From NCBI RefSeq assembly GCF_002007205.1, contig NZ_LAZS01000005.1, forward strand, positions 1,054,001 to 1,118,000: 64,000 nt of DNA. Reading direction: 5' to 3'. Each line of letters begins with the position of its first letter. Position 1 is the stretch's first letter. Position numbers and translations under genes: made by a program. The notes below the pieces were generated by a model. The model did no database searches. It had not been told where the DNA came from and was given only the letters and a program-made list of their open reading frames with translations. Of the stretch, positions 262-20,918 are shown piece after piece. Origin of the DNA: Ensifer adhaerens. Its GTDB lineage: Bacteria > Pseudomonadota > Alphaproteobacteria > Rhizobiales > Rhizobiaceae.

Positions 262-2079
262 CTATCGGTAGCGCAGGTGGTCATTCGCAACCTTGCCCCT
301 GCCCTTCTGACGTGGCGGCTTGGGGTGAAGGACGAGATGCGGTGCCTTGAGCGACGCGTCGGCCGACATGTCGGTTTCTTCAAAGGTCAGCCGCGCGAGG
401 CGGAATGTTTCCTTGTCGCTTCCCAGCAAGACGGCAGCTCCGTCCTCTGGGATTGCCAGGGGAGGCAGGTTGGAGACACGACGTTCGGAGAGCTGGTCGT
501 GCAGAAGCTTTAGGCGTGCACGGAGGTACCGGACCGGAATGTCGAGTTCCATCCGTCCCGGCTTCGAGCCCAAGATGGCAAGAAGCTGCACGATGGCCCG
601 GTCGATAGCGTCCACGTCGCCTTCGCGCGTCAAAGGCAGCGCAACCAATTCCGCGGGACCGACCCCGCAGCGCTGCTGCTCCTCGTAGACGGCGACGAGA
701 TCCTGGTCGGTGAACTTGTCGCGCGAGGCGCGCCATTCATCACGGCGACGAAAACGCAGTGGCGTCTCGCTCAATCGATATCCATTGGCGGCGACAGCGT
801 CGGCCGCAATCGGTTCGCCCCAGCCCACTGGCCAGTACGTTCCGGCGCCGTAGCCGTCTCGGGCACGCTCAGACTCGTTCTTCTTGCCCATGAAGCGCTT
901 GACCATCTTCGGTAGCTTCTTGCCGTGAGCCAGCGCGTCTTTAGTAATCCTCGCCTTCACCCCTTCGGCGCCATGAAGCAGGTGCGGAATGAGCTTGGTC
1001 ATGAAGAAGGGCGGGACAGCGTTGCCAACCTGCTTGTATTGCATCCCGCGCGGCCCGTTGAATTCGAAGCTGTCCTGGAAGCCCTGAAGACGCGCACCTT
1101 CTCTGACCGAAAGAGGTCTATCATGCAGCGGATGCGTGAAGCAGCCAGAAGTAACGTTCCCGAAGCCGGCAGAAATGGTGTAGGCGGGCGAAGCCTTGTG
1201 CAGGCGACCGTAGAGTGTCGCGTAGTCGGTCAGGCGGACGCGGCGAAAACGATCTGGCAGCAGTTCCGGCGGGATGTCTTTCCAAGAACCGCCCTGAGGC
1301 ACCTTGGAGATCCGCTTTCGATTGAGGTCGGTGAGAATGTTGCACCAGTGGTTCGCAACCTCACCATCGGAATTCGCGACGAACCGTTGAAACGCAGTTG
1401 GCGCAGACGGTAGCTTGGTTGAAGCTTTCCCGTCACGGCTGGGCGGGGCTACCAAGTCAGAGATAGCTTCGGAAACCGTAACGTAGGCGGATAGGCCGTG
1501 TCTGCCATCGACAGAATGCGTCGGCTTCGGAAAGGTGGACGGAATCGGATCCACCGATGCTATAAGGAAGAACCTATTGCGGAGCTGTGGAAGGCCGTAG
1601 TCGGCCATATTCACGACGTCGGCGAAAACGTGGTAGCCGCGATCCTCGAAGAGGGTGAACAGCTCCTTCACAATGACGAGGTTCTTGCCGTAAACGACGC
1701 CCGGAACGTTTTCCATGATAACGCGCTGCGGACGCCGTCCAGCCGCCGTAAAGCCGTCCAGCAAGCGGATGAAATGTACGAAGAGCGCGTTGCGCGGATC
1801 ATCGAGGTGGAAGACGCCCATTGTGCTGACGGCCTGGCATGTCGGCCCTGCGAAAAACCAGTCGATCTTCTCGATTTCCGCGCGCTCAATCACGTCGGTC
1901 GCCGATACCAGCGAGACATCGCAGCAATCGACTAGCGCTTCCGGATGGGCCTTCTTGAAGGTCGCCGTCGCGTTCTTGTCAATGTCGAGCGCCCATTTCA
2001 CTTTCAGATCTGGGATTGCAATGGCCGCACCAGCCGACATTCCGCCGCAGCCGGAATAAAGATCGATAGCAGTCTGCAT
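262..2079 (-). CDS. DNA (cytosine-5-)-methyltransferase with C-terminal extension
   Basis: This 605-aa protein would transfer a methyl group from S-adenosylmethionine to C5 of cytosine. Motif I is DLYSGCGG near residues 6-13. The catalytic loop is GPTCQAVS with Cys81, where the family usually has a Pro just before the Cys. Motif VI is ENV (123-125), motif VIII is QLRNR, and the late motifs appear as LQGF and QVGNAVPP. About 200 residues follow motif X, longer than a minimal M.C5 enzyme. I chose the ATG at 2079 because GGGGGA precedes it and the next residues enter motif I directly; an in-frame ATG 19 codons upstream is possible. The next gene downstream (1-207) may be in its operon. Orphan or restriction-linked status cannot be decided here. 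Confidence 0.92.
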   Translation of the reverse strand: MQTAIDLYSGCGGMSAGAAIAIPDLKVKWALDIDKNATATFKKAHPEALVDCCDVSLVSATDVIERAEIEKIDWFFAGPTCQAVSTMGVFHLDDPRNALFVHFIRLLDGFTAAGRRPQRVIMENVPGVVYGKNLVIVKELFTLFEDRGYHVFADVVNMADYGLPQLRNRFFLIASVDPIPSTFPKPTHSVDGRHGLSAYVTVSEAISDLVAPPSRDGKASTKLPSAPTAFQRFVANSDGEVANHWCNILTDLNRKRISKVPQGGSWKDIPPELLPDRFRRVRLTDYATLYGRLHKASPAYTISAGFGNVTSGCFTHPLHDRPLSVREGARLQGFQDSFEFNGPRGMQYKQVGNAVPPFFMTKLIPHLLHGAEGVKARITKDALAHGKKLPKMVKRFMGKKNESERARDGYGAGTYWPVGWGEPIAADAVAANGYRLSETPLRFRRRDEWRASRDKFTDQDLVAVYEEQQRCGVGPAELVALPLTREGDVDAIDRAIVQLLAILGSKPGRMELDIPVRYLRARLKLLHDQLSERRVSNLPPLAIPEDGAAVLLGSDKETFRLARLTFEETDMSADASLKAPHLVLHPKPPRQKGRGKVANDHLRYR

Positions 2080-2238
2080 GATTCCCCCAAAATCTTGCGG
2101 TACCCTATCAAGACCAATTGCATTCTGCGATGGCATTTGAGGTGACCGGATTAAATTTATACGTGTTTCTGCACAAAAGAGTTCGCTCCGGGAGTACTGT
2201 CCGGACGCAGATCCGCAAAGATCTTCGATTAAGGACGC

Positions 2239-3680: not shown

Positions 3681-3917
3681 ATCCAGCCCCTGACCTAATC
3701 TTCCGAATGTGCCTCGCCCTGTTCGGCAAACTAGAGAGGGTCGGACTTCCGAGCAACACCGCGCCCGCAAGATCACCGTTGCGCATTTCTCGCTGGGGAA
3801 GGTGTGAACATTGGCGGCAGTGGATCGCCTAGGGAAGTTTTCCGCAATACCAGTAATCGCCTATTTACAACTCTCGGTTATCACAACATTTGGTCATTTC
3901 AATGAAGTTTCCCTTTG

Positions 3918-5417
3918 ATGGTATCAGCCAGCTATCTGTCCCTCGCGGAGATCCGCCTCATCAAGCGGATGCTCCTCTTCAGGCCAAGGCCCACCAATCA
4001 GTCCATATTGGCCTACTTCACAAGGCCGGGACGCGATCTAAACCACCGCATAATTGCCGAAATCGAGGGATGGCGCGGCGCCGGACTGACGCCGGCTACG
4101 GAGCAGGAGGCGCGCGCCTACATGAGGGCGGCCAGTCTCCCGTATCCGGAGGGTCATGATTTCACAGCCAATGGCTTTCATGCCACCGGCCTGGCCAGTC
4201 GAGTGAAAGGATTATTGCACCTAGATTGGTGGCCGGCCGGTCAAGGTCTTTTCTCGACGGGGGCCATTACAAGCGGTCGCAGCAAGCCGCTCACTTGGGT
4301 TTTCGACTGTGGGACCGACTCCGGAAGCGCGCAGATGGACGTTGCGCTTGCGCAGTTCGCGGACCGGCAGGAGTCCATTTCCAGCAGGGAAATAAGTCTC
4401 GCATCTATTTCGCACTTTGACGCTGACCACATAAACGGGTTTGTCAAACTCCTTGCCTTGTATCCAGTCGACAAGCTACTGCTCCCATATGTCCCGCTTT
4501 GGCAACGACTTCTCGCATTAATTGAAGAAGGTATTCCTGCGAGTAGCCCCTTGGTGGGGTTTTTCGTGGATCCGGGCGCATTCCTGGCGGCTGTCGGAGA
4601 GATCCGTGAAATCATCTACGTCCCCATCACCGGCCCTGACGACCTCCCGCCTCCGCCAGAGGTACCTCCAGTTCCGTCCGGCCCCTCCTCGGAGGACGGT
4701 AATCTCGCCTTCGATGAGGGTAAACCGCAAGCGGATGGCCTCGATGACCCCATCGTTTATTCGAGCGCAATCAGGGCTCGTTTCCTTCGTCCCGGCGGCC
4801 GGATCAGGTCCGCGTTCTGGGAATTCGTGCCTTACAACGATTCGAAATGGCTAGCAGGTCCGCCGGCGGCATTGAGCGCCAAAGTGACCCCGGTCGCGCA
4901 GCAACTCGTCGACGCAAAGACCGATTCTAATCGAGAAACGGCACTCGCGGCGCTTGAAGCGATATACGACGCCACATTCGGAAGCAGGTCAAAAGCCCGT
5001 AACAGGATATCACTGTTCCTATATTCAGGTCCCGTTGATCCCGAATTGGAACTCGGGCCATACTTCGCATCACATCTGGTTGGTTTGCAGAAGAATTCGA
5101 AGCGCTTTTCCCAAATGTACACCGGAGATGGCAGCTTGAAAACCAAACGGGAGTGGGGTGAATTCAACCGATTTTTCGGTCCAGGGGACAGGTTGGCGAG
5201 GAGCAGCATCTTCCAGGTCATGCATCATGGAGCGAAAGACAATTGGCACGTCGGAATGGCATCCTCCCTTGCCCCTGCGGTCAGTCTGTTTTGCTCAGAT
5301 CCGGCACGCAAGCGTCCACACCCGCATGCAGACGTCCTCCGAGACTTTTGGCAACATCACCCTGTGCAGGTCGGCACTGAGACGGGATTTCATCTGCAAG
5401 CGAGACTTTATCGCTAG
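3918..5417 (+). CDS. ComEC-like metallo-beta-lactamase-fold protein
   Basis: This 499-aa protein begins with about 60 residues resembling a small helical DNA-binding segment (SLAEIRLIKRMLLF ... ILAYFTRPGRDLNHRIIAEI). An MBL-fold domain follows, with SHFDADHINGF as the H-x-D-x-D-H metal-binding motif, VFDCGTDSG before it, and a late VMHHGAKDNWH. No membrane segments are apparent, so it is a soluble relative of the ComEC C-terminal domain rather than a DNA uptake channel. A proline-rich linker lies around residues 240-260. A TTG one codon earlier is an alternative start. It stands between the HNH and PIN genes. Nuclease or phosphodiesterase activity is inferred from the fold only. Confidence 0.75.
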   Translation: MVSASYLSLAEIRLIKRMLLFRPRPTNQSILAYFTRPGRDLNHRIIAEIEGWRGAGLTPATEQEARAYMRAASLPYPEGHDFTANGFHATGLASRVKGLLHLDWWPAGQGLFSTGAITSGRSKPLTWVFDCGTDSGSAQMDVALAQFADRQESISSREISLASISHFDADHINGFVKLLALYPVDKLLLPYVPLWQRLLALIEEGIPASSPLVGFFVDPGAFLAAVGEIREIIYVPITGPDDLPPPPEVPPVPSGPSSEDGNLAFDEGKPQADGLDDPIVYSSAIRARFLRPGGRIRSAFWEFVPYNDSKWLAGPPAALSAKVTPVAQQLVDAKTDSNRETALAALEAIYDATFGSRSKARNRISLFLYSGPVDPELELGPYFASHLVGLQKNSKRFSQMYTGDGSLKTKREWGEFNRFFGPGDRLARSSIFQVMHHGAKDNWHVGMASSLAPAVSLFCSDPARKRPHPHADVLRDFWQHHPVQVGTETGFHLQARLYR

Positions 5418-7008: not shown

Positions 7009-8865
7009 CTACCCTGCATCCCTCTGCAGCAGCTTCATTACAAAATCCCCGGAAACGACCTGCTTCTCAAGAACGGCGCCCGTCAGGGTTTCGAGGTCAG
7101 AACGCCGACGTCGGATGATCGCGATCGACCGTTCAAGCTCCGCCGCCAGTACGCGCTCGACCCGCCGCCTAATCAGGCTGTCGGACTTTCTTAGCTCGGC
7201 AAGCTCTTCGGGCGTGGAGGCATCGTTGTAGAGAAGTGATCCCATCCCCAGGCATCCGACCATGACGGTTGCGATGTCCGTCGCACGCTGGAGATCGGAT
7301 CCCACTCCGCCGCCTACGCCGTTGTAAGTCTGGCCGATGACCTCCCTCTCCGCAGCCATCCCTGCCATCAGCATCGCGATCTCGTCGCGGTACGACTGCT
7401 CGGATCGATGCATGGGTCTCGAGCGCTGCCATTCGACATGGCCGAGGCTATCGCAACGTGATGGCATTTCGGAGAGCACCACGACCGCCGACACCGTCGC
7501 GTAGGCCAGTTCGACGCCGACAATGGCGTGACCCGCTTCGTGTATCGCCGTCGCAGTTCTCGTCTCAATATCGATGCTGACCAACGGTGGCGATACTTCG
7601 AGGATGTCCTGCGGCAAGACCTCCCGACGATTGCGGCGCGCGATCTTGCGCGCGTCCCTCGCAAGCTGGGCGAGCAATGCACCGGAGTAACCAGCGGTGG
7701 CTCGTGCGGCGGCCGCCAGCGCGTCGGCGGGCAGTTCCGTTCCCAGATGGAGGGACAGGATCTTCTTGCGGTCATCGTATTCCGGGAGCTGAATGGCAAC
7801 ATGCCGGTCCAGCCTTCCCGGTCTTTTCAATGCCGGGTCGATGCTGTCTGGGTGGTTCGTTGCGGCGATGACTACAACTCCCTCCCTCCGAGACGATCCG
7901 TCGAGCATCTCCAAGATCCCATTCACCACCTGGACGCCGTATCCCGCGTTGTCGCCCCGGAACTTTGAGCGGTCGCCGACTGCGTCGAACTCATCGAGGA
8001 ACAAGATGGTGGGCGCCTTGTCCGCAGCCTCCCGGAAAGACTTGCGCATCGCCTTCAGGTAGTCCCCAAGATGCCCCGCAGCCTGCCATTCGGCACTGGA
8101 TGCAGCCATAAAGTTGATGCCGCAGGTGCGTGCCGCCGCGGAAGCGAACATCGTCTTGCCGGTTCCGGTCGGCCCGCTGAGCAAGAGGCCGCAGTCCACG
8201 TCCTCCCACGGGATGCTTCTCTTGCGCCAGTCCGCAATATCGCGGGAAAGGTCGAGCACCCAGTCCTGTGCCGCACCGAATCCGGGAAGATCCTCCACCC
8301 CGCAATCAACCACGACGGACTTCCGCCGTGCCGCGAGGGCGCTCAATCTGGACAAGGCGTCCTCGATCGAGCGGCCGGGACGCAGCGACTGAAAGATCAG
8401 TTCGGGCGGGTGCGCCAGCAGCGACCTGGCAACGGCGCTGGAGATGCGGATGCCTCGGGCGGATTTGATGGCCGCGGCCAGATGAGTGGGGAGGAGTTCG
8501 CCGACGTTTACAATGCGGTCGAGGCCAACAACCAGCCTTGGGGGGATCGTTGCATCCTCCGGGATAAGGATGATGACAGCGGGCTTCACGCCGAGAAACT
8601 CGATCGCGTCTGTCCAGTTGTGCTGCCCCTTCCAGGACTCCTCCACGCGAACGACGGTGTAGACGTCGTTCAGGTTTGCGCTTTTGAGAATGGATTTGAC
8701 GGCGTCAGCATAAACTTCGTGATTGACCGCATTCGAAAGCACCAGACCGACCGCGGCGTCTTTTCGGGCGAGCACGCCGCCCTTGCGCAGGGCGGTTCTG
8801 GCGGCGATCGAATAAGCGACCACTTCGAGCGTCGCGGCGCGCTCGGAGAACGAACTCTTGTTCAC
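7009..8865 (-). CDS. Soluble FtsH-like AAA+ ATPase with M41-type metallopeptidase domain
   Basis: This 618-aa protein has an N-terminal domain of about 200 residues that I do not recognise. A classic AAA+ module follows: Walker A GPTGTGKT (231-238), Walker B ILFLDEFD (287-294), sensor-1 AATN, and arginine fingers in RPGRLDR (348-354). The C-terminal part carries the zinc motif HEAGH (442-446) and a distal GSDLQRATDIA that matches the third-ligand region of FtsH. Unlike housekeeping FtsH it has no transmembrane segments, so it should act in the cytosol as an ATP-dependent unfoldase-protease. It is the second gene of an operon, 11 bases after the TnsA-like gene. Substrate and role are unknown. 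Confidence 0.85.
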   Translation of the reverse strand: MNKSSFSERAATLEVVAYSIAARTALRKGGVLARKDAAVGLVLSNAVNHEVYADAVKSILKSANLNDVYTVVRVEESWKGQHNWTDAIEFLGVKPAVIILIPEDATIPPRLVVGLDRIVNVGELLPTHLAAAIKSARGIRISSAVARSLLAHPPELIFQSLRPGRSIEDALSRLSALAARRKSVVVDCGVEDLPGFGAAQDWVLDLSRDIADWRKRSIPWEDVDCGLLLSGPTGTGKTMFASAAARTCGINFMAASSAEWQAAGHLGDYLKAMRKSFREAADKAPTILFLDEFDAVGDRSKFRGDNAGYGVQVVNGILEMLDGSSRREGVVVIAATNHPDSIDPALKRPGRLDRHVAIQLPEYDDRKKILSLHLGTELPADALAAAARATAGYSGALLAQLARDARKIARRNRREVLPQDILEVSPPLVSIDIETRTATAIHEAGHAIVGVELAYATVSAVVVLSEMPSRCDSLGHVEWQRSRPMHRSEQSYRDEIAMLMAGMAAEREVIGQTYNGVGGGVGSDLQRATDIATVMVGCLGMGSLLYNDASTPEELAELRKSDSLIRRRVERVLAAELERSIAIIRRRRSDLETLTGAVLEKQVVSGDFVMKLLQRDAG

Positions 8866-8876
8866 GGCAGCCTCCT

Positions 8877-9491
8877 TCAGCGCGCTGTGCGACGAATGCA
8901 GGTGTCTGGCCCGATCAATGCCTCATCGAGCTCGAGACTTACGATCCTCTGAAGGGCGAGCGAGGCGAGGCCCGCCATCGGAGCGATCTCGCGGAACAGC
9001 GCAAGCCCCTCCGCAATGCTGAACGATCCGACCTCGTCGAGTGCGGCCATCACCCGGATCCGGTCGCCAAGCGGGCAGCGATAGTTCCCATATCGAAGTA
9101 GGTCGCGGGCGTTGCGCAGCCTCCATCCCCGCTCCCGCTGTTCGCGGGTGATGAACTCGTAGGTCAGTCCGGCCGAGGATGCCGCCTCTTCGATGGCCCC
9201 GTTCACGTGGTCTGAGGCATCCATGAAGCACTCTCGTCCGCAGGTGAATGTCACCCGGAAGTCGGGCGTTAACGTCACGTCTCCAACGCGGAGCTCGACC
9301 GGAAGGCACTCCCATCTCTCCACCGCATCATCGACGTCGAGCAGACAACCGAGGTCGCGGGCATCTCGTGACCGGAATGATGGCGTTCCGGAGCATCTGA
9401 TAGTGGCTTTGGGTGGGAAGGAAATGGTCGCAGTACGCGGCACCTCACGGCTGCCGCTAGGGGGAGACTCGATACGCATGACAAGATCCAC
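8877..9491 (-). CDS. TnsA-like (restriction-endonuclease-fold) small protein
   Basis: This 204-aa protein resembles the TnsA nuclease family in layout. LPVELRVGDVTLTPDFRV contains the TPDF segment that carries the metal-binding Asp in TnsA, and the C-terminal helical part ends with LELDEALIGPDTCIRR, a pattern I associate with TnsA-type proteins of alphaproteobacterial Tn7-like elements. Where an active TnsA has E-V-K, this protein has FMDASD, so catalysis is doubtful. It heads a two-gene operon with the AAA+/M41 gene, and a perfect palindrome (9599-9618) lies upstream. The start may be the GTG at 9491 or the ATG at 9479. Assignment to the fold is by eye and needs a profile search. Confidence 0.55.
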   Translation of the reverse strand: MDLVMRIESPPSGSREVPRTATISFPPKATIRCSGTPSFRSRDARDLGCLLDVDDAVERWECLPVELRVGDVTLTPDFRVTFTCGRECFMDASDHVNGAIEEAASSAGLTYEFITREQRERGWRLRNARDLLRYGNYRCPLGDRIRVMAALDEVGSFSIAEGLALFREIAPMAGLASLALQRIVSLELDEALIGPDTCIRRTAR

Positions 9492-9598: not shown

Positions 9599-9618
9599 AC
9601 CGGTATTATAATACCGGT
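9599..9618. promoter_or_regulatory. Perfect 20-bp palindrome with TATAAT at its centre
   Basis: The sequence ACCGGTATTATAATACCGGT is its own reverse complement over all 20 bases. It lies 108 bases upstream of the TnsA-like/AAA+ operon and contains TATAAT, so a dimeric repressor bound here would block a promoter -10 element. A good -35 is not obvious on either strand. The remainder of 9492-9685 shows no gene. Confidence 0.5.
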
Positions 9619-9685: not shown

Positions 9686-9874
9686 TCAGTCCCGCCGTGC
9701 ACCCCTTGCGAGGAATTCCCTGGCATCGGGCTTGCCGTTTTTCTTCTGGTAGATGAGCGTAAACGAACCGTCCTCGTCATCGACCTGCTGCGAACCCTTG
9801 GACTTTGCGGCTGCAAAGAAGGCTAAAGGGTCCTTCAGGACGTCGCCGAGAGAGATGGTTTTTGTGCGCGACAT
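9686..9874 (-). CDS. Small hypothetical protein, antitoxin-like size
   Basis: This 62-aa protein begins MSRTKTISLGDVLKDPLAFF and has a basic C-terminus. GAGG lies just upstream of the ATG at 9874; an ATG four codons earlier (9886) is an alternative. It is divergent from the PIN toxin gene at 10126. The fragment DVLKDPLAFFAAAKSKG followed by a beta-type stretch (GSFTLIYQKK) would fit a small antitoxin, but family membership is not established. Confidence 0.5.
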   Translation of the reverse strand: MSRTKTISLGDVLKDPLAFFAAAKSKGSQQVDDEDGSFTLIYQKKNGKPDAREFLARGARRD

Positions 9875-10125
9875 TCGACCTCGCATACCCTGATCACATA
9901 TGAATATATAGGGGATGGGGTACTGTTGCTAGCCGAGCAGGTGAATCTCCACAGAAGCCCGAATGCAGCCGTGTGATATCTCGGGAGGATTGAATCCTTC
10001 CAATCATGTGCCGCGCCTCCGCCGTCTCCATTTCAATTCCATCCCATTGCTGGCGTTAGGGCTTCTTTAACCGTGTCCCGGGACCCTCAGTGCACGTATG
10101 TATGCATGGTTGGGTGGAGACAGTG

Positions 10126-10686
10126 ATGCACACAGGTTACATGCTGCTCGACACGAGCGTCGTGAGTGCGGCACGAGGGAAAGCCCCGGAGGAGACCGTC
10201 GTGCGCTTCCTGCGGTCATTGCCACGTGGTTCGATCGCCGTTCCGACGTTCACCGTCTTCGAACTCGAGCGGGGTGTGCGGAAGCTGCAACTTGTCGACG
10301 GACAGCGCGCCCAGCCACTCCTCGACTGGCTGGACGATCTGCTCGCGACGGACATCTTCATTCCTCCTGTCACGGTCGATATCTGGCGCCTTCTAGCCCG
10401 CATGGCGTTGGTGCCCGCCCTCAGCAAGTTCTGGATCGATACCGGAGATCCGCCGAAGATGCGGTTCGGATGCGATCCGGGGCTCGCCGCAATCGCGATT
10501 CACCACGGCATGCCCATCGCAACCCGTGACGTCCACGACTTCATGCTCATCCATCGCCATTTTCCTCTGCCCGGACTTTATGAGCCGCATGCGTGCCGCT
10601 GGCACATCGAGCCGACGACCGAGTGGAGAAGTTCGTTCGAAGCTGAAGCCTCCGATGACCTACAAGCGGTGGGGTATTTCTCATAG
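10126..10686 (+). CDS. VapC-family PIN-domain toxin (putative ribonuclease)
   Basis: This 186-aa protein carries the PIN pattern: MLLDTSVVSAARGK with the first Asp, FELERGV with the Glu, and DPGLAAIAIHHGMPIATRD with two further acidic residues. Such proteins cut tRNA or other RNA until neutralised by an antitoxin. It is about 45 residues longer than a typical VapC at the C-terminus. I chose the ATG at 10126 because GGAG precedes it by eight bases; the longer frame to 10090 adds an unconvincing MHVCMHGW stretch. No antitoxin gene lies directly upstream in the same direction. The divergent 62-aa gene at 9686-9874 is the only nearby candidate. Confidence 0.8.
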   Translation: MHTGYMLLDTSVVSAARGKAPEETVVRFLRSLPRGSIAVPTFTVFELERGVRKLQLVDGQRAQPLLDWLDDLLATDIFIPPVTVDIWRLLARMALVPALSKFWIDTGDPPKMRFGCDPGLAAIAIHHGMPIATRDVHDFMLIHRHFPLPGLYEPHACRWHIEPTTEWRSSFEAEASDDLQAVGYFS

Positions 10687-11782: not shown

Positions 11783-11941
11783 ATGATCCAGGTTCTGAAC
11801 CAGATTGAGGCACTCTATTTCGCTCGACAGGGATACCTTCCCTGGGCGCGCGCCTATGAACGCAAGACTTACGTGGCCAACCCCGACGAGGGTTATCGCG
11901 GCGGACTCATGTCAGGGAACTGCCGAGGTTCACAAGCGTGA
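11783..11941 (+). CDS. Possible small ORF overlapping the start of tnsA
   Basis: An ATG at 11783 with GGAAG upstream opens a 52-codon frame beginning MIQVLNQIEALYFARQGYLP. It ends at TGA 11939-11941 inside tnsA in another frame. It could be a leader that couples translation to tnsA, or the original N-terminus of TnsA lost by a frameshift, since the tnsA frame itself begins with a poorly protein-like stretch. No family recognised. Confidence 0.3.
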   Translation: MIQVLNQIEALYFARQGYLPWARAYERKTYVANPDEGYRGGLMSGNCRGSQA

Positions 11942-12638
11942 GGTATCGGTCGAGGAATATGCTGGCCTTCCGTTCTTCTATGAGATGGAACCGTCGCCCG
12001 CGGCCCGTAAGGTAACGCTGAAGACGAACGCCTCCTGCCGCATCGTGATGTGTGCGCCGGGTTCCAACCAGTACCTCGTATTTGAAAGCCAGTTCGAAGC
12101 CGATTGCGCACGCGTTTTCTGGGCGATGCCGAACGTCCGATCGGTCGAAGCTCAGTACGGGCCTATCGAATACACCGACGAGGATGGCGTCATCCGCGAG
12201 CACTATGCCGACCTCCGGGTCGAGTTCACGAACGGCTGGGTGGCTCTCTACTGCGTCCGGCCCTCGGAGAAGGACAGACGCGGCAAGCTGAAGGCAGCGG
12301 TCGAAGATATCCGTAACCATGAGCTCAGATATCATGCCAACCGCATCGAAATTCTGACGGAGAAGACGGTGACGAAAGCCGATATTTACCGCGCGCGTGA
12401 AATTCTCGCGGCCCGGCGCCTCAAGAACTCCCCCGATTGCGTCCGTCTCCTTGAACGACTCCGCGCGAGGACGAAGCCGGTCCGCGCATTCGAGCTTCTT
12501 GACGAGTTCGGTTGCCAGGGGAGCGGAATGATCGCGCTGTGGAACCTGATGGGGGATGGCTTGGTAGATCACGTTTCCAGCAATGCGTCGTTGACGTTCA
12601 CGCCCGTTTCCTTCGTGCGCGCCCGGAGGCCGAGCTGA
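11805..12638 (+). CDS. tnsA: TnsA-like transposon endonuclease, catalytic lysine apparently replaced
   Basis: TnsA is the restriction-endonuclease-fold subunit that cuts the 5' ends of a Tn7-type element, while TnsB joins the 3' ends. The 277-aa product has the family pattern: FESQFEADCARVFWAMPNVR with the first acidic residues, then EAQYGPIEY, then HYADLRVEF with the metal-binding Asp. Where active enzymes have E-V-K or V-A-V-K-P, this one reads YCVRPSEK, so Lys seems to be Arg. The C-terminal half has winged-helix character. The true start is uncertain: the ATG at 11859 (MNARLTWPTP) or one beyond it may be used, because residues 1-40 look atypical. The stop overlaps the tnsB start as TGATG, indicating coupled translation. 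Confidence 0.75.
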   Translation: MRHSISLDRDTFPGRAPMNARLTWPTPTRVIAADSCQGTAEVHKREVSVEEYAGLPFFYEMEPSPAARKVTLKTNASCRIVMCAPGSNQYLVFESQFEADCARVFWAMPNVRSVEAQYGPIEYTDEDGVIREHYADLRVEFTNGWVALYCVRPSEKDRRGKLKAAVEDIRNHELRYHANRIEILTEKTVTKADIYRAREILAARRLKNSPDCVRLLERLRARTKPVRAFELLDEFGCQGSGMIALWNLMGDGLVDHVSSNASLTFTPVSFVRARRPS

Positions 12639-14995
12639 TGGCGTCGACGGGGAGCTTTACGACTGCGCGGCTCCGGATCGTGGACCGTGTCGAGATGAAT
12701 GGTGCGGCCTTCCGCGTGCACCCATCCAAGAACGGGCTTGGATTCATCTTTACGGAGATAGGCGGCGCTGGTGCCGTCGACTATCTGAAGAATTCCGAGA
12801 TCGCGAAGTTCATCCGCCGACGCGCCATGGTGATTAGGCGCAACTACTATTCAGAAGAGGAAGCCGTCAGTCGTCAGAAACAGTCGCTCGATCCGGACAT
12901 CGTCCCAAAGCACATCATGTACCGGGCCAGGATGCTCACCAAGTTCCTCGAGGAGTGGGAGGCCGGTCTGCGTTCCAAAACGGAGGAAAGCGTCCTGGAG
13001 TTTTACGAGGACTATTCTTCGTCCTACGAGGCGCAACTTCCAGAACCTCGCGCTGGACAGAAAAAGGTTCAGGTCGAGACGCATCATTTCGGGAGTCCGG
13101 GCCATTTCCTGAGGCTAGTCCGGAGGTTCGAGCAAGGCAATCGCAGCCCGTTTTGCTTGATGTACGGCGGCGACCCGAGCGACGCCGATCCCCCTCGGCG
13201 ACGTCTTCCCGAGCCAGTAAACCAGTACCTCGATTCCGAGGCAAGAAAACTGGCTACCGCCAAGAAGGCCGACATCGCCCTTCATTGGAAGCTTATGGTG
13301 AAGGACAACGAGGATAGTGCGAATCCGCTTGATCTGCCTGACATCCGTACCTTCTATCGGCGTGTTGCAGAACAAAAGAGAATGCTGATCGATCTAGGTC
13401 ACAATGGCGCAGAGGCGACGCGCGACAAATACGAGCTGTCAAAGACCGCGAACCGAAAGTTTCGCCCCCTCGAACGCATTGAGATGGACGAGGACAAGCT
13501 CGACATCATTGCATTGTTGAAAGGCACGCGCCTCTGGAATGTCATCGCTCCCGCGGTCCAGGAGCGCATCAAGAAGCAACGCTTCTGGGGATCCATGGCA
13601 ATCGACTGCGCGACGAGATCGATTCTCGCATTGCGTCTTCTCGATTCCGATCCCAAAGGCAGGTCCGCCGTTGAGACCCTCCACATGGCTGTCATGCCGA
13701 AGGATGATTTCGCCAAGGCCGCCGGTGCCGAAGCATCCTGGATTCAGTTCGGCATTCCGGAAGAGGTGGCGACTGACCATGGCGCCGGCTATCTCGACGA
13801 CGAGTTTCATGAGTGCGTCGTTGCGCTCTGCGGCAGCCATCTGATGCCGCCCACAGGTACCCCGAGGCTACGCGGCCGGATCGAACGCTTTTTCAAGACC
13901 GGTAAGAGCTGGCTGCGCCTCTTTTCCGGGCAAACGTTTTCCAATCCAATTGCCCGCGGGGCATATGATTCCGAAGCGAACGCCTCGATGGACTTCGAGG
14001 AGCTTGCGCGGTGCCTTGTTCGGCTCATCGTCGATGCCTACCACCTGACAAAGCACCGGGGCCTTGCCAACCAGAAGCCGATTGACGCTTGGTCGCAGAT
14101 GACCAGGGACCGACCGGTGGACGTTCTCGCGGATCCTGACAAAGAGGGGATGATATTCGGCTTCCGGGCAGGAACACGGGCGATCAGTCGTTCGGGCATT
14201 GTGTGCTTAGGGGTTCCCTACTGGGACGGCCGTCTCCAGGCGATCATCGCACAATACGAGAAAGCCGAGGTGCATATCCGCGTCAATCCATACAATCTTG
14301 AAAGTATCGGCTTTCGAATGGCCGGCGATGATCGTGTCTTCTGGATCAAGGCCGCAGTGCCCGGATTTGAAGGTGTTTCGGCGATCGAATGGGCCGCCAC
14401 GAAGCGCCGTCTGGATGAGGCGTACTCGCAGCACGACATTGAGGATGCGAAGATCATCGCCAAGGCTTTCAAGGATGTCATGGCGATCGCGAAAGTCTCG
14501 GAAGACAGGCATAACGTGGCCTCGCATGTCGTGACCAAAGACGACTACGATCGGCTCGAAGACCAAGTTTTCAACGGCTACGTCGCGGGTGGCCGGACGC
14601 GTCCCGACTACGCTCCCGAGCCCGAGATGTTTCTGTTGGACAACCTTCCGCATGACGGAGTCACCTCGATCGAAGACGAAAGCGACGACATTAACAAGGA
14701 CGTCTCGGTTGCAGAGGAGCCCGCAAGCATTCTCAGCCCACCGGAGGGTGAGTTCGATCCTGGCCGCTTCGCGCGCCTGCGTGAGCAGGAAGGTGTGGCG
14801 CATCCCCGCGTCACGCCGGCTCCGGCTGAAGAGAAAAAGCCACGAAGGAAGAAGAATGAGGAACCATATCTTCCCGCAACAATCTCGGATCTCATGCGAG
14901 GCGCCCCCGCAGCGCCTAAGGATGAAAAACCGAAGGGGCGAATTGCAGGTCGGCCGCCAGCATTCAAATCGGACTGGAGCAGCGAAGAAGAATGA
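12638..14995 (+). CDS. tnsB: TnsB-like DDE transposase
   Basis: This 785-aa protein is the integrase-fold transposase that binds the element ends and performs 3' cleavage and strand transfer. The catalytic triad can be read as Asp323 (in AIDCATR), Asp380 (in ATDHGAGYLDD) and Glu416 (in RGRIERFF), intact and with normal spacing. An upstream HTH-like region (TFYRRVAEQKRMLIDLGH) and a downstream beta-barrel region fit the TnsB/TniA/MuA layout. The C-terminal 100 residues are charged and low in complexity and would include the TnsC-contacting tail. I chose the ATG at 12638, which overlaps the tnsA stop and has GGAGG upstream; the open frame extends back to 12512. It overlaps tnsC by four bases. 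Confidence 0.93.
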   Translation: MASTGSFTTARLRIVDRVEMNGAAFRVHPSKNGLGFIFTEIGGAGAVDYLKNSEIAKFIRRRAMVIRRNYYSEEEAVSRQKQSLDPDIVPKHIMYRARMLTKFLEEWEAGLRSKTEESVLEFYEDYSSSYEAQLPEPRAGQKKVQVETHHFGSPGHFLRLVRRFEQGNRSPFCLMYGGDPSDADPPRRRLPEPVNQYLDSEARKLATAKKADIALHWKLMVKDNEDSANPLDLPDIRTFYRRVAEQKRMLIDLGHNGAEATRDKYELSKTANRKFRPLERIEMDEDKLDIIALLKGTRLWNVIAPAVQERIKKQRFWGSMAIDCATRSILALRLLDSDPKGRSAVETLHMAVMPKDDFAKAAGAEASWIQFGIPEEVATDHGAGYLDDEFHECVVALCGSHLMPPTGTPRLRGRIERFFKTGKSWLRLFSGQTFSNPIARGAYDSEANASMDFEELARCLVRLIVDAYHLTKHRGLANQKPIDAWSQMTRDRPVDVLADPDKEGMIFGFRAGTRAISRSGIVCLGVPYWDGRLQAIIAQYEKAEVHIRVNPYNLESIGFRMAGDDRVFWIKAAVPGFEGVSAIEWAATKRRLDEAYSQHDIEDAKIIAKAFKDVMAIAKVSEDRHNVASHVVTKDDYDRLEDQVFNGYVAGGRTRPDYAPEPEMFLLDNLPHDGVTSIEDESDDINKDVSVAEEPASILSPPEGEFDPGRFARLREQEGVAHPRVTPAPAEEKKPRRKKNEEPYLPATISDLMRGAPAAPKDEKPKGRIAGRPPAFKSDWSSEEE

Positions 14996-16062
14996 GCAAG
15001 GGACCAATTCTGGGTGAGAAGCCCGAGTTTTCCGGCGTAAGCGATGTGAATGTACAGCTTGTTGCGGCCGGAGTGGCGAGAGGCCTAGACGACAAGCATC
15101 GGCGGATCATGGCCACGATGACGAGGGTGAAGTCCGCCTACGTTCCAACCCGGAATGATAAATTGGTCGACATCCCTTTTGCTCGAATGAAACGCGCCGT
15201 AGCCGGCATGGAACCGGAAGGTTTCGCCGTGTCTATCTTCGCCGAGACCGGAATGGGCAAGTCGACGTTGATCGAACAGCGCCTGAAGGACGAAATATCC
15301 TTCCAACCTCTCCCGGACGGATATAATAACTACCTATACCCGGTGCTCTACGTGAAGGCTCCATCGAAGGCGTCTATGAGCGATCTAGGGGAGCAGATGC
15401 TCGATGCGATGGGTTATCCGATCACGCGTCAGAAGAAGGAAGCTGCCATCGTCAGGGACGTGGGCAACTATCTCAGACGTCGTGGTACCAGGGTTGTCGT
15501 CATCGATGATTTCCAGCACGTCCTTGACGCACCGAAGACCAAGGGTCCGGCGCACGTCGCAGATTCGATCAAGAACATGCTGCAGAACCCGCGATGGCCG
15601 GTGTTCATCGTCCTCGTCGGCCTTCCCGAGATCAAGGAAGTCGTCCTCAGGGATCCCAAGGATCAGATGCTGCGTCGTGTCGACGATTTTGGACTGCTGG
15701 ACCTGTCACTCGAAGCCGACGGAGAAATGATTGCGGCGATTATCCTGGAGCTCGTGGAGAAGCGAGCAGGACTTCGGATGTCTCCCGATGTGCCGGCAGA
15801 CTTCATCGAAAGGCTCATGTTCGGCGCGCACTTCCGGTTCGGGATGGTCATGAAGATAATCTACCACGCCATTGAGGACGCCCTCGAACACGACGAGAGT
15901 GTGGTTTGTGCCCACCACTGGGAGGAAGGTTATCGTCGCCTGGTCAACGGTGACTATGAGGCGAATAACAACGTGATGGCCTCTGACAACTGGAGGACGA
16001 TCCATCGGCCGGTCAACAGAAATGGCGTCTTCGGGTCTCTTTCCAAGAAAACGGCGAACTGA
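14992..16062 (+). CDS. tnsC: TnsC-like AAA+ transposition regulator
   Basis: This 356-aa ATPase would link the target-selecting TniQ protein to the transposase and mark target DNA by forming ATP-dependent filaments or rings. Walker A is ETGMGKST (GMGKST at 87-92) and Walker B is RVVVIDDFQHVL (VVVIDD at 168-173). A sensor-1-like VLVGLPE follows. Length and order are normal for TnsC/TniB. The start ATG overlaps the tnsB stop by four bases (ATGA), so the two are translationally coupled. Confidence 0.92.
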   Translation: MSKGPILGEKPEFSGVSDVNVQLVAAGVARGLDDKHRRIMATMTRVKSAYVPTRNDKLVDIPFARMKRAVAGMEPEGFAVSIFAETGMGKSTLIEQRLKDEISFQPLPDGYNNYLYPVLYVKAPSKASMSDLGEQMLDAMGYPITRQKKEAAIVRDVGNYLRRRGTRVVVIDDFQHVLDAPKTKGPAHVADSIKNMLQNPRWPVFIVLVGLPEIKEVVLRDPKDQMLRRVDDFGLLDLSLEADGEMIAAIILELVEKRAGLRMSPDVPADFIERLMFGAHFRFGMVMKIIYHAIEDALEHDESVVCAHHWEEGYRRLVNGDYEANNNVMASDNWRTIHRPVNRNGVFGSLSKKTAN

Positions 16063-16072
16063 GGCTGCAGCG

Positions 16073-17878
16073 ATGTATCGTGTTCCCCTGTTCCATGACG
16101 AAAGCCTGACGAGCTATTGCTCGAGACTTGCGGCTGCCAATGTGAAGACCGCTCCAGACTTCTGTCTCGATATGGGGATCCGCTTCCAGGATGTGATCCA
16201 AGCTACAGACTTCGCTGTCAAAAGGCTGGCAGAGATCGGAGATTTGCCGATCGAGAGCATCCAGCGTGCTGCAATCGGCAAAAAAGGCGATAGCTGGATT
16301 GTCGGTGGCGAGGCGATCAACAATAAGTTCTATGTAAGAACGCAGCTTCGGATATGCCCGCGCTGCTTCGAAGAGGATGCCAGGGCCGTGGATCGAATGC
16401 CGGGTGTCCGACACTACATGCGTCGATCATGGTCGTTGCAGTTTGTCAGAACCTGCCCGCATCACAACTGTGCGCTCAACGATTTCGGTCGATCGCCGCT
16501 ACACGCCATCAGATGCCATGACTTCATCGACAGCCTGATGGCATCTGACATCGGCCCTGGGTTCGGACAGGTTCGGCCGCGCGCCCTCTCCGGCTTCGAA
16601 CGCTTCTCTCTCGATCGCCTCGAGGGCATCCGACGGCATGGCGGTACACTGGATTCAATGCCTCTGGAACGCGCGGGGTACCTTTGCGAGGTTCTTGGGA
16701 TAGCCCTGCTCTATGGCAACAACACCGACCAGGCGGCGGTCGATGAAGATCAATTGTGGCATGCCGGCGAGAAGGGCTATCAGTATCTTTCGAGAGGCCG
16801 CGATGGTCTTCGGGACGCTTTGGATGTGTTTCACGGCCGCCTCGAACTAAACAAGTCCGACTTCGGCGGCGGCAAGCTATATGGTCGATTCTACAAGATC
16901 CTCTGGGACCAGCGAGATCCTGTTTGGGACCAGATAAAGAGAGATATACACGACTACGCATTCGCGGTTCTTCCTCTGAGCCAGACAGCGAACGTTTTTG
17001 GAACTTCGAAAAAGGCAAGCCATATCTCAGAGACCGAGCTACGCACACAGTTTGGCCTCAGGCCCAGCCATCTAAGAAAGATGGCCGTCGCGCTGGGGAT
17101 GCTGGACGCTGCGTCGGCGAAATCCGGAGCGGTCCCAAAGGATGTAGCTCGCAAAGTCGCTGAAATCCTGGCTGACAGCTTGCTGGCCAAAAAGGCGGCT
17201 GGCGTTCTGGGAATTACCTATCCGAAATTTGCGAAATACCGACGCGCAGGCTTTTTCGATCCGGTCATCGTTCCGGGCAACGGCGTCACGCTTTCCGAGA
17301 GGTTTTCCAAACGAGCTCTTGAGGCTTTCCTTGAGAGTATTCACCCAGCGGTGGGGTCTCCGGTCGCGGAAGGCCTAAAGCCGATAAACGTTGCAGCCAA
17401 ACTAGCGCGATGCAGGGACAGCGACGTTCTGAAACTCGTCCACGATAAGAAATTGAAGCGCGTCGGATGGGATGACGGAAAGGTCGGACTTGAAGCTGTT
17501 TTGGTGGATCCCGAGGAGGTCCTCGCGCTCGACCAGCCTCACGAGGCGGAGGACCCCTCGCTGGATGAAGTCGGTGAAATCTTGAACGTTGGCTCGGACG
17601 CGGCACGAAGCCTTTGCGGGTCAGGATATCTACCATGCTACAACGGAAAGAACCGATATAATCAGGCCACGCAATATGTGAGACATTCTGATATCGAAGC
17701 ATTCCGCGCAGAGTACATTTCCCTGTCGGAGATGGTTTTCGAGTTCAGCGATAGGTTCGGGGAATTGCAGTCAGCTATAAATACAAAGCGGATCCGACCC
17801 TCGATACCCAAGGCAAGCAAGCATCCAAACTTCTATCGGCGATCAGAGATCGAAGCACTGATGAACGCTATAGCGTAG
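16073..17878 (+). CDS. tniQ: TniQ/TnsD-family target-selection protein
   Basis: This 601-aa protein starts with the TniQ domain (MYRVPLFHDESLTSYCSRLA) and a zinc-binding motif formed by Cys95 and Cys98 (CPRC) with Cys128 and His131 (CPHH). The long C-terminal part holds several helix-turn-helix-like blocks, for example ELRTQFGLRPSHLRKMAVAL and EVGEILNVGSDAARSLCG. It is therefore closer to TnsD, which recognises a fixed chromosomal site, than to short TniQ proteins. I chose the ATG at 16073, preceded by GAGG, 10 bases after tnsC. The frame is open back to 16022 inside tnsC. Its target cannot be read from the sequence; tRNA-Ala is 3 kb away. Confidence 0.9.
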   Translation: MYRVPLFHDESLTSYCSRLAAANVKTAPDFCLDMGIRFQDVIQATDFAVKRLAEIGDLPIESIQRAAIGKKGDSWIVGGEAINNKFYVRTQLRICPRCFEEDARAVDRMPGVRHYMRRSWSLQFVRTCPHHNCALNDFGRSPLHAIRCHDFIDSLMASDIGPGFGQVRPRALSGFERFSLDRLEGIRRHGGTLDSMPLERAGYLCEVLGIALLYGNNTDQAAVDEDQLWHAGEKGYQYLSRGRDGLRDALDVFHGRLELNKSDFGGGKLYGRFYKILWDQRDPVWDQIKRDIHDYAFAVLPLSQTANVFGTSKKASHISETELRTQFGLRPSHLRKMAVALGMLDAASAKSGAVPKDVARKVAEILADSLLAKKAAGVLGITYPKFAKYRRAGFFDPVIVPGNGVTLSERFSKRALEAFLESIHPAVGSPVAEGLKPINVAAKLARCRDSDVLKLVHDKKLKRVGWDDGKVGLEAVLVDPEEVLALDQPHEAEDPSLDEVGEILNVGSDAARSLCGSGYLPCYNGKNRYNQATQYVRHSDIEAFRAEYISLSEMVFEFSDRFGELQSAINTKRIRPSIPKASKHPNFYRRSEIEALMNAIA

Positions 17879-18742: not shown

Positions 18743-20257
18743 TCAAAATCGCGATCTGAATTTCTTGACCGCCCAGGATCCGTCGCCTTCGTTCATCGTG
18801 GCGCACAAGATCGTCTCGCCGTCGGTGCGGATGTTGACGAGCCCGTAAATGAGCCCCGCAACGACGGGCACGCGGGACATTGGCTTCTGCTTCCTCTCCG
18901 GGTTGAGCGCGCCGGGCTTCGTTTCCGTAAAATGCACGGTGACCTGTTGAAGCCGCGCCGCATCGATCTCCACGTCTTCGGATGCTCCGGCGATGGCCTC
19001 ACTCTTGATGGCAAGGGACGTCGGCTTTCCAATCGAGACCGAGCGCGCGAGTTCGGTCGAGTAGACGAGCGGCGTCAGGATTTCATCCCGCTCGACGGTT
19101 CGATATCCCGTCACGCCGGATGCCGCGACAATCCTGGGTTTGGGGTGGTCATGTCCCTCCCCGTCGCCAGAGCAGATGACAGTCGCCGCCGGGGTCATGG
19201 CTTGCAGGAACGCATAGGAGACGTCTTCACTGCCGTGGTGGCACGCCTTGGCGACGTCGCATTGGAACTCCATGCGGTGCCCCGAGTGAATCTCCATAAG
19301 TAGCTGCTGGCTGACCTTGTTCAGATCGCCGGTCAGGAGGATGCGCGACCGGCCGTAGTCGATGCGCAAGACCACGCTGTTGCCATTGGTGGTCTTGGAG
19401 TCGGCGCCGAAGTCCGCAAGGGCGGGTTTTCCGTCAATCGTGAATTCGGCAGGGCCAAGAAGTTTCATCGACGCATTGCCGGCTGCGGGCTCAAAGCTCG
19501 GCAGATATCCCGTCATGTGGCTGAGGCGTGTGATCGGCGTGGGAGAGCCGTCCGAACGCTTCGCCGACACGACCTTTTCGATGAATTTGCCCCACTCGCC
19601 CTGCAACGGAGGATCCGCACCCCCGCCGATCGCGTTCACCGCGCTCTCGCGATCTTCGAGAAGCTGCGTCTGAAATTGTTTGCCATCGACGGATCGCGTC
19701 GTGCCGAGCGTCCGCTCCCCGTCCTTCCTCCACCAGGAAATGCCCGCGTGGTAGAAGTTCTCGATCGACGTCGACTTCGCGTCAAGTTCGCTGGTCTGAC
19801 CGGCATCGAGCACATCCGACAGCCCGCCATAGTGGTCCAGGTCGTTGTGCGAAGCGATCATCGCGTCGAGAGAAATGTTCTCCAGCCCGTAGTCCTGCGT
19901 GAATTTCCAGTCCACGAAGTCGGCGGCCGACTTTCCGGTATTCTGGCTCGTGCGGGAATGACCACCGTCGATCATGAGGTGCCGGAAATCCGGTGTCTTG
20001 ACCAACACCCCGTCCCCCTGTCCGACATCGATGAAATACACTTCCAGAAGCGATTTTCCGCCCAGCGCCTGCTCGTCTATCCAGCCTTCGCGGTTCTTTC
20101 CCCTGGCCGTCACCTTGACCCGGCCGTTCTCCTCTTGGCCACGACGAAACACGCCATCGCCCCACAGGAGAAATCCAGAGTGTTTACCGCCGCTGGAGTC
20201 GCGCCAGAGCTTCGTAGAATCCACACTGACATAGTCATCGAACGCAGGGTCGACCAT
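18743..20257 (-). CDS. ComEC/Rec2-type metallo-beta-lactamase-fold protein
   Basis: This 504-aa soluble protein has an N-terminal SH3-like stretch (LWRDSSGGKHSGFLLWGDGV to GWIDEQALG). The MBL fold follows: YFIDVGQGDGVLVKTPDFRH, then ASHNDLDHYGGL as the metal-binding H-x-D-x-D-H, RILLTGDLN, and CHHGSED. No membrane helices are visible, unlike full ComEC. Related soluble proteins occur in defence islands and are presumed nucleases or phosphodiesterases; activity here is inference. It is a second, divergent copy of this fold in the island (the other is at 3918-5417). If the terminus at 18606 is real, this gene lies outside the transposon. Confidence 0.8.
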   Translation of the reverse strand: MVDPAFDDYVSVDSTKLWRDSSGGKHSGFLLWGDGVFRRGQEENGRVKVTARGKNREGWIDEQALGGKSLLEVYFIDVGQGDGVLVKTPDFRHLMIDGGHSRTSQNTGKSAADFVDWKFTQDYGLENISLDAMIASHNDLDHYGGLSDVLDAGQTSELDAKSTSIENFYHAGISWWRKDGERTLGTTRSVDGKQFQTQLLEDRESAVNAIGGGADPPLQGEWGKFIEKVVSAKRSDGSPTPITRLSHMTGYLPSFEPAAGNASMKLLGPAEFTIDGKPALADFGADSKTTNGNSVVLRIDYGRSRILLTGDLNKVSQQLLMEIHSGHRMEFQCDVAKACHHGSEDVSYAFLQAMTPAATVICSGDGEGHDHPKPRIVAASGVTGYRTVERDEILTPLVYSTELARSVSIGKPTSLAIKSEAIAGASEDVEIDAARLQQVTVHFTETKPGALNPERKQKPMSRVPVVAGLIYGLVNIRTDGETILCATMNEGDGSWAVKKFRSRF

Positions 20258-20489
20258 CGGATATGCCCCCCCAGATCTCTTACATCGGTCAACAATAGAA
20301 GGCGCTCGCCTCAGGATTGTGTCAAGCGCCTATGCAAGATCGAGGCGACAGGCCGCCGTCCCGGCCGCAAGTCGACCTGAAACGGTCTTCGGACCGCGCT
20401 TGCCATTCAGAACGAAACATGAATATCGTTCAACTTGACTCAGGGGCCGCCCGTGGCCCGTGCTTGCTTCACCCCAGCCGGATCCCATC

Positions 20490-20918
20490 ATGGCCGCGCC
20501 GATCATCGACATCATCCTCGAAGACCCGAACAGAGAGGACCTGCGCGGCATCGTGGCGCCGCTGGACGCCTATAACGACGCCCATAGCGGCATGGCCGAT
20601 CTGCCCGGTTTTGCGGTCGTGCTTCGCGACCCCGAGACGAAGGCAGCAACCGGCGGGCTCTATGCGACGGATGGTTACGGTTGGGCGTTCATCCGCTACC
20701 TCGCCATTCCCGATGAGTACCGCGGCCAAGGCCTCGGCCGGCGTCTGATCGAGGAAGCGGAGAAGATCGCGCGGGATCGCGGCTATGTCGGCCTCTGGCT
20801 CGACACGTTCGAATTCCAGGCCCGGCCTTTCTACGAGAAGCTGGGCTTCGAAGTCTTTGGTGAACTCGAAGGCGGACAAGGAGCGATTGCGCGCTATTTC
20901 CTGAAGAAACGGTTCTGA
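20490..20918 (+). CDS. GNAT family N-acetyltransferase
   Basis: This 142-aa protein has the acetyl-CoA binding motif RGQGLGRRLIEEAEKIARDR and the terminal ARPFYEKLGFEVFGEL typical of GNAT enzymes. The ATG at 20490 begins MAAPIIDIIL. It is the first gene after the accessory island and appears chromosomal. Substrate unknown. The 230 bases between it and the ComEC-like gene show no gene. Confidence 0.88.
   Translation: MAAPIIDIILEDPNREDLRGIVAPLDAYNDAHSGMADLPGFAVVLRDPETKAATGGLYATDGYGWAFIRYLAIPDEYRGQGLGRRLIEEAEKIARDRGYVGLWLDTFEFQARPFYEKLGFEVFGELEGGQGAIARYFLKKRF

Follow-up and report, generated by a model that had tools for sequence, protein, structure and literature searches.

A TnsA-like protein paired with a soluble AAA+ M41 protease, mostly in Tn7-like islands of Rhizobiaceae

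Why should a relative of the Tn7 endonuclease TnsA be encoded together with an FtsH-like unfoldase-protease beside a set of Tn7-like transposition genes? The question is raised by a 64,000-nucleotide stretch of an Ensifer adhaerens genome (contig NZ_LAZS01000005.1, positions 1,054,001 to 1,118,000; hereafter the window, with positions counted from its first letter), where two open reading frames (ORFs) lie in tandem on the reverse strand: 8877-9491(-), encoding a TnsA-like protein of 204 amino acids (aa), and, directly downstream, 7009-8865(-), encoding a 618-aa AAA+ metallopeptidase. Both begin with GTG, the gap between them is 11 bp, and AAGGAGG precedes the start of the second, protease gene. 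The protease gene lies directly downstream, on the same strand, of 63 of the 74 TnsA-like small genes examined (those of the window, L036, L040, L055-L064, L067 and L099-L158; L065, L066 and L068 were left out), and two more run into the end of their stretch. At 21 dereplicated loci, the distances among the small proteins correlate with those among their AAA+ partners (r 0.71, p 0.0005). This adjacency and co-divergence bear out the first-pass annotation, which had read the pair as a single operon; the homologues do occur together. We therefore describe a two-gene cassette made from known kinds of parts, in a combination that appears undescribed in the literature searched: nothing recognisable as a description of the pairing turned up there (most subscription journals and bioRxiv lay outside the scope), and term searches of a Tn7 cargo survey (PMC8649781) and of a target-selector survey (PMC10293859) gave no FtsH.

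The kinship of the small protein with TnsA emerges from profile comparison. The profile of the small family aligns with that of these elements' own TnsA proteins with an hhalign probability of 98 and an E-value of 1.6e-13 over 181 columns, and the latter profile in turn matches TnsA proteins of solved structure (PseTnsA, 6e-8; Tn7 TnsA, 0.0065). Both the N- and the C-terminal regions of the small protein align with TnsA, and its C-terminal part is conserved. Taken alone, the protein matches no model over the cut-off (NF033179, TnsA-like, comes at E 0.092), neither it nor its profile reaches the TnsA entries of the PDB, and 15 of its relatives yield one weak Pfam match between them; the PDB matches that the small protein gives by itself, to glycogen phosphorylase and the like, we dismissed as chance. 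A scan of viral contigs for further relatives usable in structure alignments found none. In a tree, the 74 small proteins form a single clade (support 1.0) separate from 55 TnsA proteins, and in the window, as in the other loci with an annotated tnsA, a separate TnsA precedes tnsB, so the small protein is not the element's TnsA.

Mapping through an alignment with 1f1z places Glu63, Asp114, Gln130 and Lys132 of Tn7 TnsA, which we take to be its active site, opposite Ala44, Asp77, Asp91 and Ser93 of the small protein. Across the 74 small proteins, position 44 is Ala in 62, Val in 8, Thr in 2, Lys in 1 and a gap in 1, and never Glu; position 93 is Lys in a single protein (with 7 gaps), and the Asp at position 77 is kept in 71. 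The resident TnsA proteins, by contrast, have the Glu and the Asp in 61 of 61 cases, and at the Lys position 47 have Lys and 14 have Arg. The kept TPDF core and the changed catalytic Lys position had been noticed on first inspection; both observations hold, and the Glu63 equivalent is lost as well. By its alignments the small protein is thus best classed within a TnsA-derived family of its own whose nuclease site is gone, and because two of the TnsA catalytic positions are lost family-wide, it is probably not a working nuclease. The earlier label of nuclease-fold protein is right as regards descent from TnsA and probably misleading as regards activity.

The second protein is a soluble AAA+ ATPase fused to an M41 zinc metalloprotease, as judged from Pfam matches (AAA, 4.9e-31; Peptidase_M41, 1.7e-20), motif conservation and hydrophobicity; residues 1 to about 190 are unassigned, about 223-425 form the AAA+ module with its lid, and about 431-610 form the M41 domain. 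The first-pass annotation had described Walker A, Walker B, arginine fingers and HEAGH as intact, and all are near-invariant among the 61 relatives scoring above 380 bits: all 61 have the Walker B Asp-Glu pair, the two leading Arg of RPGRLDR and the His, Glu and His of HExxH, 60 have the Walker A Lys, and 60 have the third-ligand Asp, with a gap in the remaining one. The pore loop of FtsH has an aromatic-hydrophobic-Gly pattern (F-V-G); at what appears, from placement against FtsH by eye, to be the pore-1 place, this family has W-Q-x-x-G-H-L-G, with the W in 61 of 61. Hydrophobicity revealed no membrane segment: the top-scoring 19-mer falls within the M41 domain, whereas that of this genome's canonical FtsH lies at the N-terminus. 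The absence of membrane helices was thus correctly called, and so was the uncharacterised N-terminus, since the first roughly 190 residues have no covering match among the listed Pfam, NCBIfam, PADLOC and PHROGs hits. A degenerate AAA, TnsA or M41 domain was considered for this region and rejected at hhalign probabilities of 5.4, 0.4 and 0.15 per cent, the region having been compared with the protein's own AAA and M41 domains and with the small protein. The protease family also has other partners, such as a DUF6634 protein in L044. In L037, L038 and L044, a protein of about 325 aa with a D...VKRGGG motif, which could be a nuclease-type core, is encoded upstream of the AAA-M41 gene; the L037 and L044 copies have no Pfam match. 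A gene assigned by Pfam to the calcineurin-like metallophosphoesterases recurs near the pair (family present in 17 of 76 clustered loci; for example L056 14615-15454) and directly follows the protease in L056, L058 and L064; none was seen in the window.

Next to the pair lie Tn7-like genes, as the first-pass annotation had it, at 11805-17878. The resident TnsA (11805..12638, +), assigned by alignment with the TnsA family and with PDB TnsA, keeps the Glu and the Asp and is one of the 14 with Arg at the Lys132 position, for which reason the window element may transpose replicatively. It is followed by the TnsB transposase (ORF 12512..14995, +, the true start being probably about 12600; PADLOC TnsB 3.8e-9, Mu-transpos_C just under the cut-off, invariant Asp/Glu columns), the TnsC/TniB AAA+ regulator (14992..16062, +; Pfam TniB 6.6e-18) and the target-selection protein TniQ (16022..17878, +; PADLOC TniQ 3e-23). 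In Agrobacterium rubi (L001), the pair, a PIN-domain gene and TnsABC-TniQ are arranged as in the window.

How close is the association? Of 394 genomes drawn from the window's family, 56 have the small gene, and in a class-wide draw of 385 genomes only the window's own has it; one locus, L040, comes from another family of the same order. Of 72,556 named plasmid records, 17 match the small gene (Rhizobium 13, Sinorhizobium 2, Aminobacter 1, Microvirga 1). The 394 genomes gave 72 small-gene matches, 60 of which were fetched, and 71 were used after a second fragment in G187 was dropped. Candidates were scored per genome (at most two for TnsB, at most seven for the small gene), and the counts that follow hold among the matches listed. 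Full-length TnsB was separated at E < 1e-100, a split set after inspection of the list, at the place where full-length proteins give way to shorter ones. By this split, a full-length TnsB is found in 52 of the 394 genomes, 43 of which also carry the small gene; a Fisher test that ignores phylogeny gives an odds ratio of 121 (p 8e-37). The rows of the TnsB alignment came from loci adjoining the cassette; with the 16 source genomes excluded as a check on this bias, 27 of 36 TnsB genomes have the small gene (odds ratio 76). The link is specific to this type of transposase: 81 of the 394 genomes carry the restriction gene HsdR, the single control of its kind, and 8 of these are among the 52 with full-length TnsB (odds ratio 0.67), and 3 of 62 genomes with the shorter TniA-type protein have the small gene, among the 342 that are without full-length TnsB (odds ratio 1.37). 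The two also lie near each other: at 36 of 64 full-length TnsB loci a small gene is found no more than 60 kb away on that contig, and such a TnsB lies within 40 kb of 36 of the 71 small genes, where about 1.2 would be expected. Most of the cassette's carriers are Tn7-like TnsABC-TniQ islands in the family to which the window belongs, and the link of the pair to Tn7-like elements stands. The idea that the cassette keeps out a second element was considered and, by eye, not favoured, as two TnsB loci are present in several genomes that have the cassette.

Carriage by an element is one matter and membership in its core machinery another. When loci were thinned by both TnsB and small-protein distance, the 21 that remained gave correlations with TnsB of -0.06 for the small protein (p 0.71), 0.04 for the AAA+ protein (p 0.33) and 0.86 for TnsC; thinning by TnsB alone left 24 loci, at which TnsC-TnsB is 0.84. 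In a separate thinned set, TnsA-TnsB gave 0.68 (n 36). Without thinning, small-TnsB rises to 0.32 (n 30), and it is likewise positive in other sets that were not dereplicated (0.72, n 10; 0.48, n 16; 0.28, n 29; L145, L147, L152, L153, L154 and L157 left out). The pair thus co-diverges with TnsB weakly or not at all, and far less than TnsC does; it looks like, and mainly behaves as, an exchangeable cassette. The suggestion that it is an accessory module of the transposon is therefore upheld as to carriage, but functional dependence is doubtful, since at the same loci TnsC follows TnsB closely and the pair follows it weakly or not at all.

The island that holds the window's pair is 43.4 kb long, with limits drawn from three relatives that lack it, in which the empty place measures 146, 179 and 425 bp. 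Its right limit is at 20485-20499 and its left limit at about -22885, outside the window, in L160, next to what we take, from its residues, to be the end of an nrdJ-type reductase gene. No terminal inverted repeats were found at these limits, and for that reason we call the island a likely, rather than a certain, single Tn7-like transposon. It holds a Druantia-type DruE2 helicase (2085 bits) with a DruM2-like methylase, which matches DruM2 but scores better against a general model of type II methylases, and a CBASS-like E1-E2 and JAB pair (L159 9820-15693, L159 150-2295 and window 262-2136), as well as HNH and metallo-beta-lactamase genes. On plasmids, the pair lies near Hachiman HamA/HamB (L058), IetA/IetS and the Kiwa protein KwaB (L062), and a CBASS cyclase with a HORMA gene (L064).

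What, then, might the cassette do? Our preferred reading, which we put forward tentatively as plausible though short of probable, is a recognition-plus-degradation machine whose target is somewhat more likely to be foreign (a phage or a competing mobile element) than to be the transposase of the resident element. The small protein would bind a DNA-protein complex and act as adaptor or sensor without cutting, and the AAA+ M41 ring would unfold and degrade the protein handed over. We infer ring assembly, adaptor role, target and outcome alike. An adaptor is the most likely role because the N- and C-terminal regions of TnsA are kept but the small protein should not cut, and adaptor or sensor is the simplest reading of a non-cutting DNA-processing fold regularly partnered with an intact unfoldase-protease. 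We lean towards a foreign target because very different transposases accompany the cassette and antiviral genes adjoin it at the loci examined, and because the cassette is exchanged between elements and lies at variable distance from TnsB. Several observations weigh against this reading. Nine of the 74 small genes have no adjoining protease despite at least 1.5 kb of sequence there, and the decayed plasmid copies L065, L066 and L068, outside the 74, also have none. The specificity for one TnsB type is something that a plain defence cassette need not show. At the 24 loci, weak co-divergence is left (small-TnsB 0.12, p 0.065; AAA-TnsB 0.19, p 0.005; AAA-TnsC 0.26, p 0.0005). No listed PADLOC family spans the full length of either protein; the defence neighbours come from PADLOC annotation of the window's island and of three loci on plasmids, with no enrichment control, and the annotations of two further plasmid loci with the pair, L056 and L057, name no known defence system. 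Structure models from two-sequence alignments (window and L001) reached a predicted local distance difference test score (pLDDT) of 36 for the small protein and 42 for the AAA+ protein and are not used as evidence; the adaptor role rests on homology and active-site loss.

Some of the same observations would suit a role in transposition itself, in which the inactive TnsA relative docks on TnsB or TnsC at the transposon ends and the protease dismantles or degrades the post-transposition complex or limits transposition. The TnsA origin of the small protein, the genome-level and locus-level links to one transposon type and the residual co-divergence of the AAA+ protein with TnsB and TnsC all favour it, as do same-strand small-AAA-TnsA-TnsB-TnsC-TniQ runs with an AAA-TnsA gap below 1 kb in L040, L145, L148, L150 and L152 and, at the level of the order, tns genes in 9 of 20 fetched AAA-M41 loci. 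There is also a precedent by analogy: according to passages of PMC12326709, ClpX raises integration by PseCAST, a CRISPR-associated transposon (CAST), and is hypothesised to disassemble the post-transposition complex, and it raises wild-type CAST integration in human cells. The small protein, however, is nearly uncorrelated with TnsB where TnsC tracks it closely, its gene lies anywhere from 2 to 117 kb from TnsB, 9 of the 52 element genomes are without it and 13 of the 56 small-gene genomes show no such TnsB, and we regard a transposition accessory as possible, if doubtful. A more specific version, in which the inactive TnsA is a decoy adaptor that delivers its own or rival Tn7-type transposase complexes to the soluble AAA+ protease as a transposon-borne degrader with ClpX-like control, seems to us rather unlikely. 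The patchy distribution of the small gene (56 of 394 genomes) and the conserved C-terminal part of its product would also fit an acquired quality-control protease that hitch-hikes, with the TnsA-like gene domesticated to regulate the operon by binding DNA. That the pair is so specific for one type of element, and that its two proteins diverge together, suggests a partnership instead, and a regulator would have nothing to regulate at the nine small genes that lack an adjoining protease; we think this explanation improbable.

Least probable by far, in our view, is that the protease serves as a switch, degrading an adjoining short antitoxin and so freeing a PIN RNase when triggered. The genes concerned are a 66-aa ORF (9686..9886, -), which we assign as a putative antitoxin through a family of small ORFs beside PIN genes, and, divergent from it, a PIN-domain protein (10090..10686, +; Pfam PIN 2.2e-6) that is a probable toxin or RNase. 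The 66-aa ORF has no Pfam match over the cut-off; a hidden Markov model built from it finds PIN-adjoining ORFs in 26 loci at E <= 1e-3, and the two genes are probably a toxin-antitoxin pair. In favour of a switch, the short ORF lies divergent from the PIN gene and shares the strand of the cassette in the window, L001, L064, L113, L117, L122, L129 and L135. Against it, a PIN gene is present in 25 of 76 clustered loci, and such ORF-PIN pairs are also found apart from the cassette, which is about 20 kb distant in L172 and L188 and on another contig in L178.

Should the preferred adaptor reading be true, a transposase subunit would have been turned from a cutter into a protease-targeting subunit, a new control of DNA-protein complexes. 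If the target were phage, the antiviral proteases would gain M41 members; if it were transpososomes, Tn7-like elements would own a counterpart of the host factor ClpX.

Two further features of the window concern the surroundings of the pair. Upstream of the small gene lies a perfect 20-bp palindrome (9599..9618, no strand assigned), to which control of the operon had been ascribed. The palindrome is real (no chance match in 100 shuffles), but it is not conserved: of 67 small-gene loci, 4 contain some perfect palindrome at least 14 bp long, with 2.5 expected, and we rejected the palindrome as a regulator of the family. Proteins of about 500 aa are encoded on both sides of the transposon genes, at 3915-5417 (weak Avs1a/LmuA) and 18743-20257 (metallo-beta-lactamase).

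Comparison with known systems shows where the cassette departs from each of its apparent relatives. With the TnsA endonuclease (1F1Z, 1T0F; PseTnsA), the small family shares the 181-column alignment and the Asp of the PDF core, but TnsA has the catalytic Glu and Lys, both of which the small family has lost, and the latter forms its own clade. FtsH and the other M41 proteases have the same order of AAA and M41 domains, the same HExxH and the same third Asp ligand. FtsH, however, carries an N-terminal membrane anchor and a periplasmic domain, whereas the window protease has no detected membrane segment and no listed match to the FtsH N-domain; it differs from FtsH in its N-terminal 190 residues or so and, apparently, in the W-Q-x-x-G-H-L-G at the presumed pore-1 place, and its score against the FtsH model TIGR01241 is 207, where the cut-off is 600. 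IetAS likewise combines an ATPase with a protease (an AAA ATPase and a subtilisin-like enzyme), and IetA models match the AAA domain here, though over residues 226-409 only; the IetAS protease is a separate S8 protein, whereas the M41 domain of the window protein is joined in cis and comes with an additional TnsA-like partner gene. Host ClpX acts on MuA and is proposed to act likewise on type I-F CASTs, and its work on MuA or CAST transpososomes would offer a likeness of function only: an AAA+ unfoldase tied to a DDE transposase system, with a possible remodelling role. ClpX is a host protein, whereas the window protease travels with the element and has a protease domain of its own.

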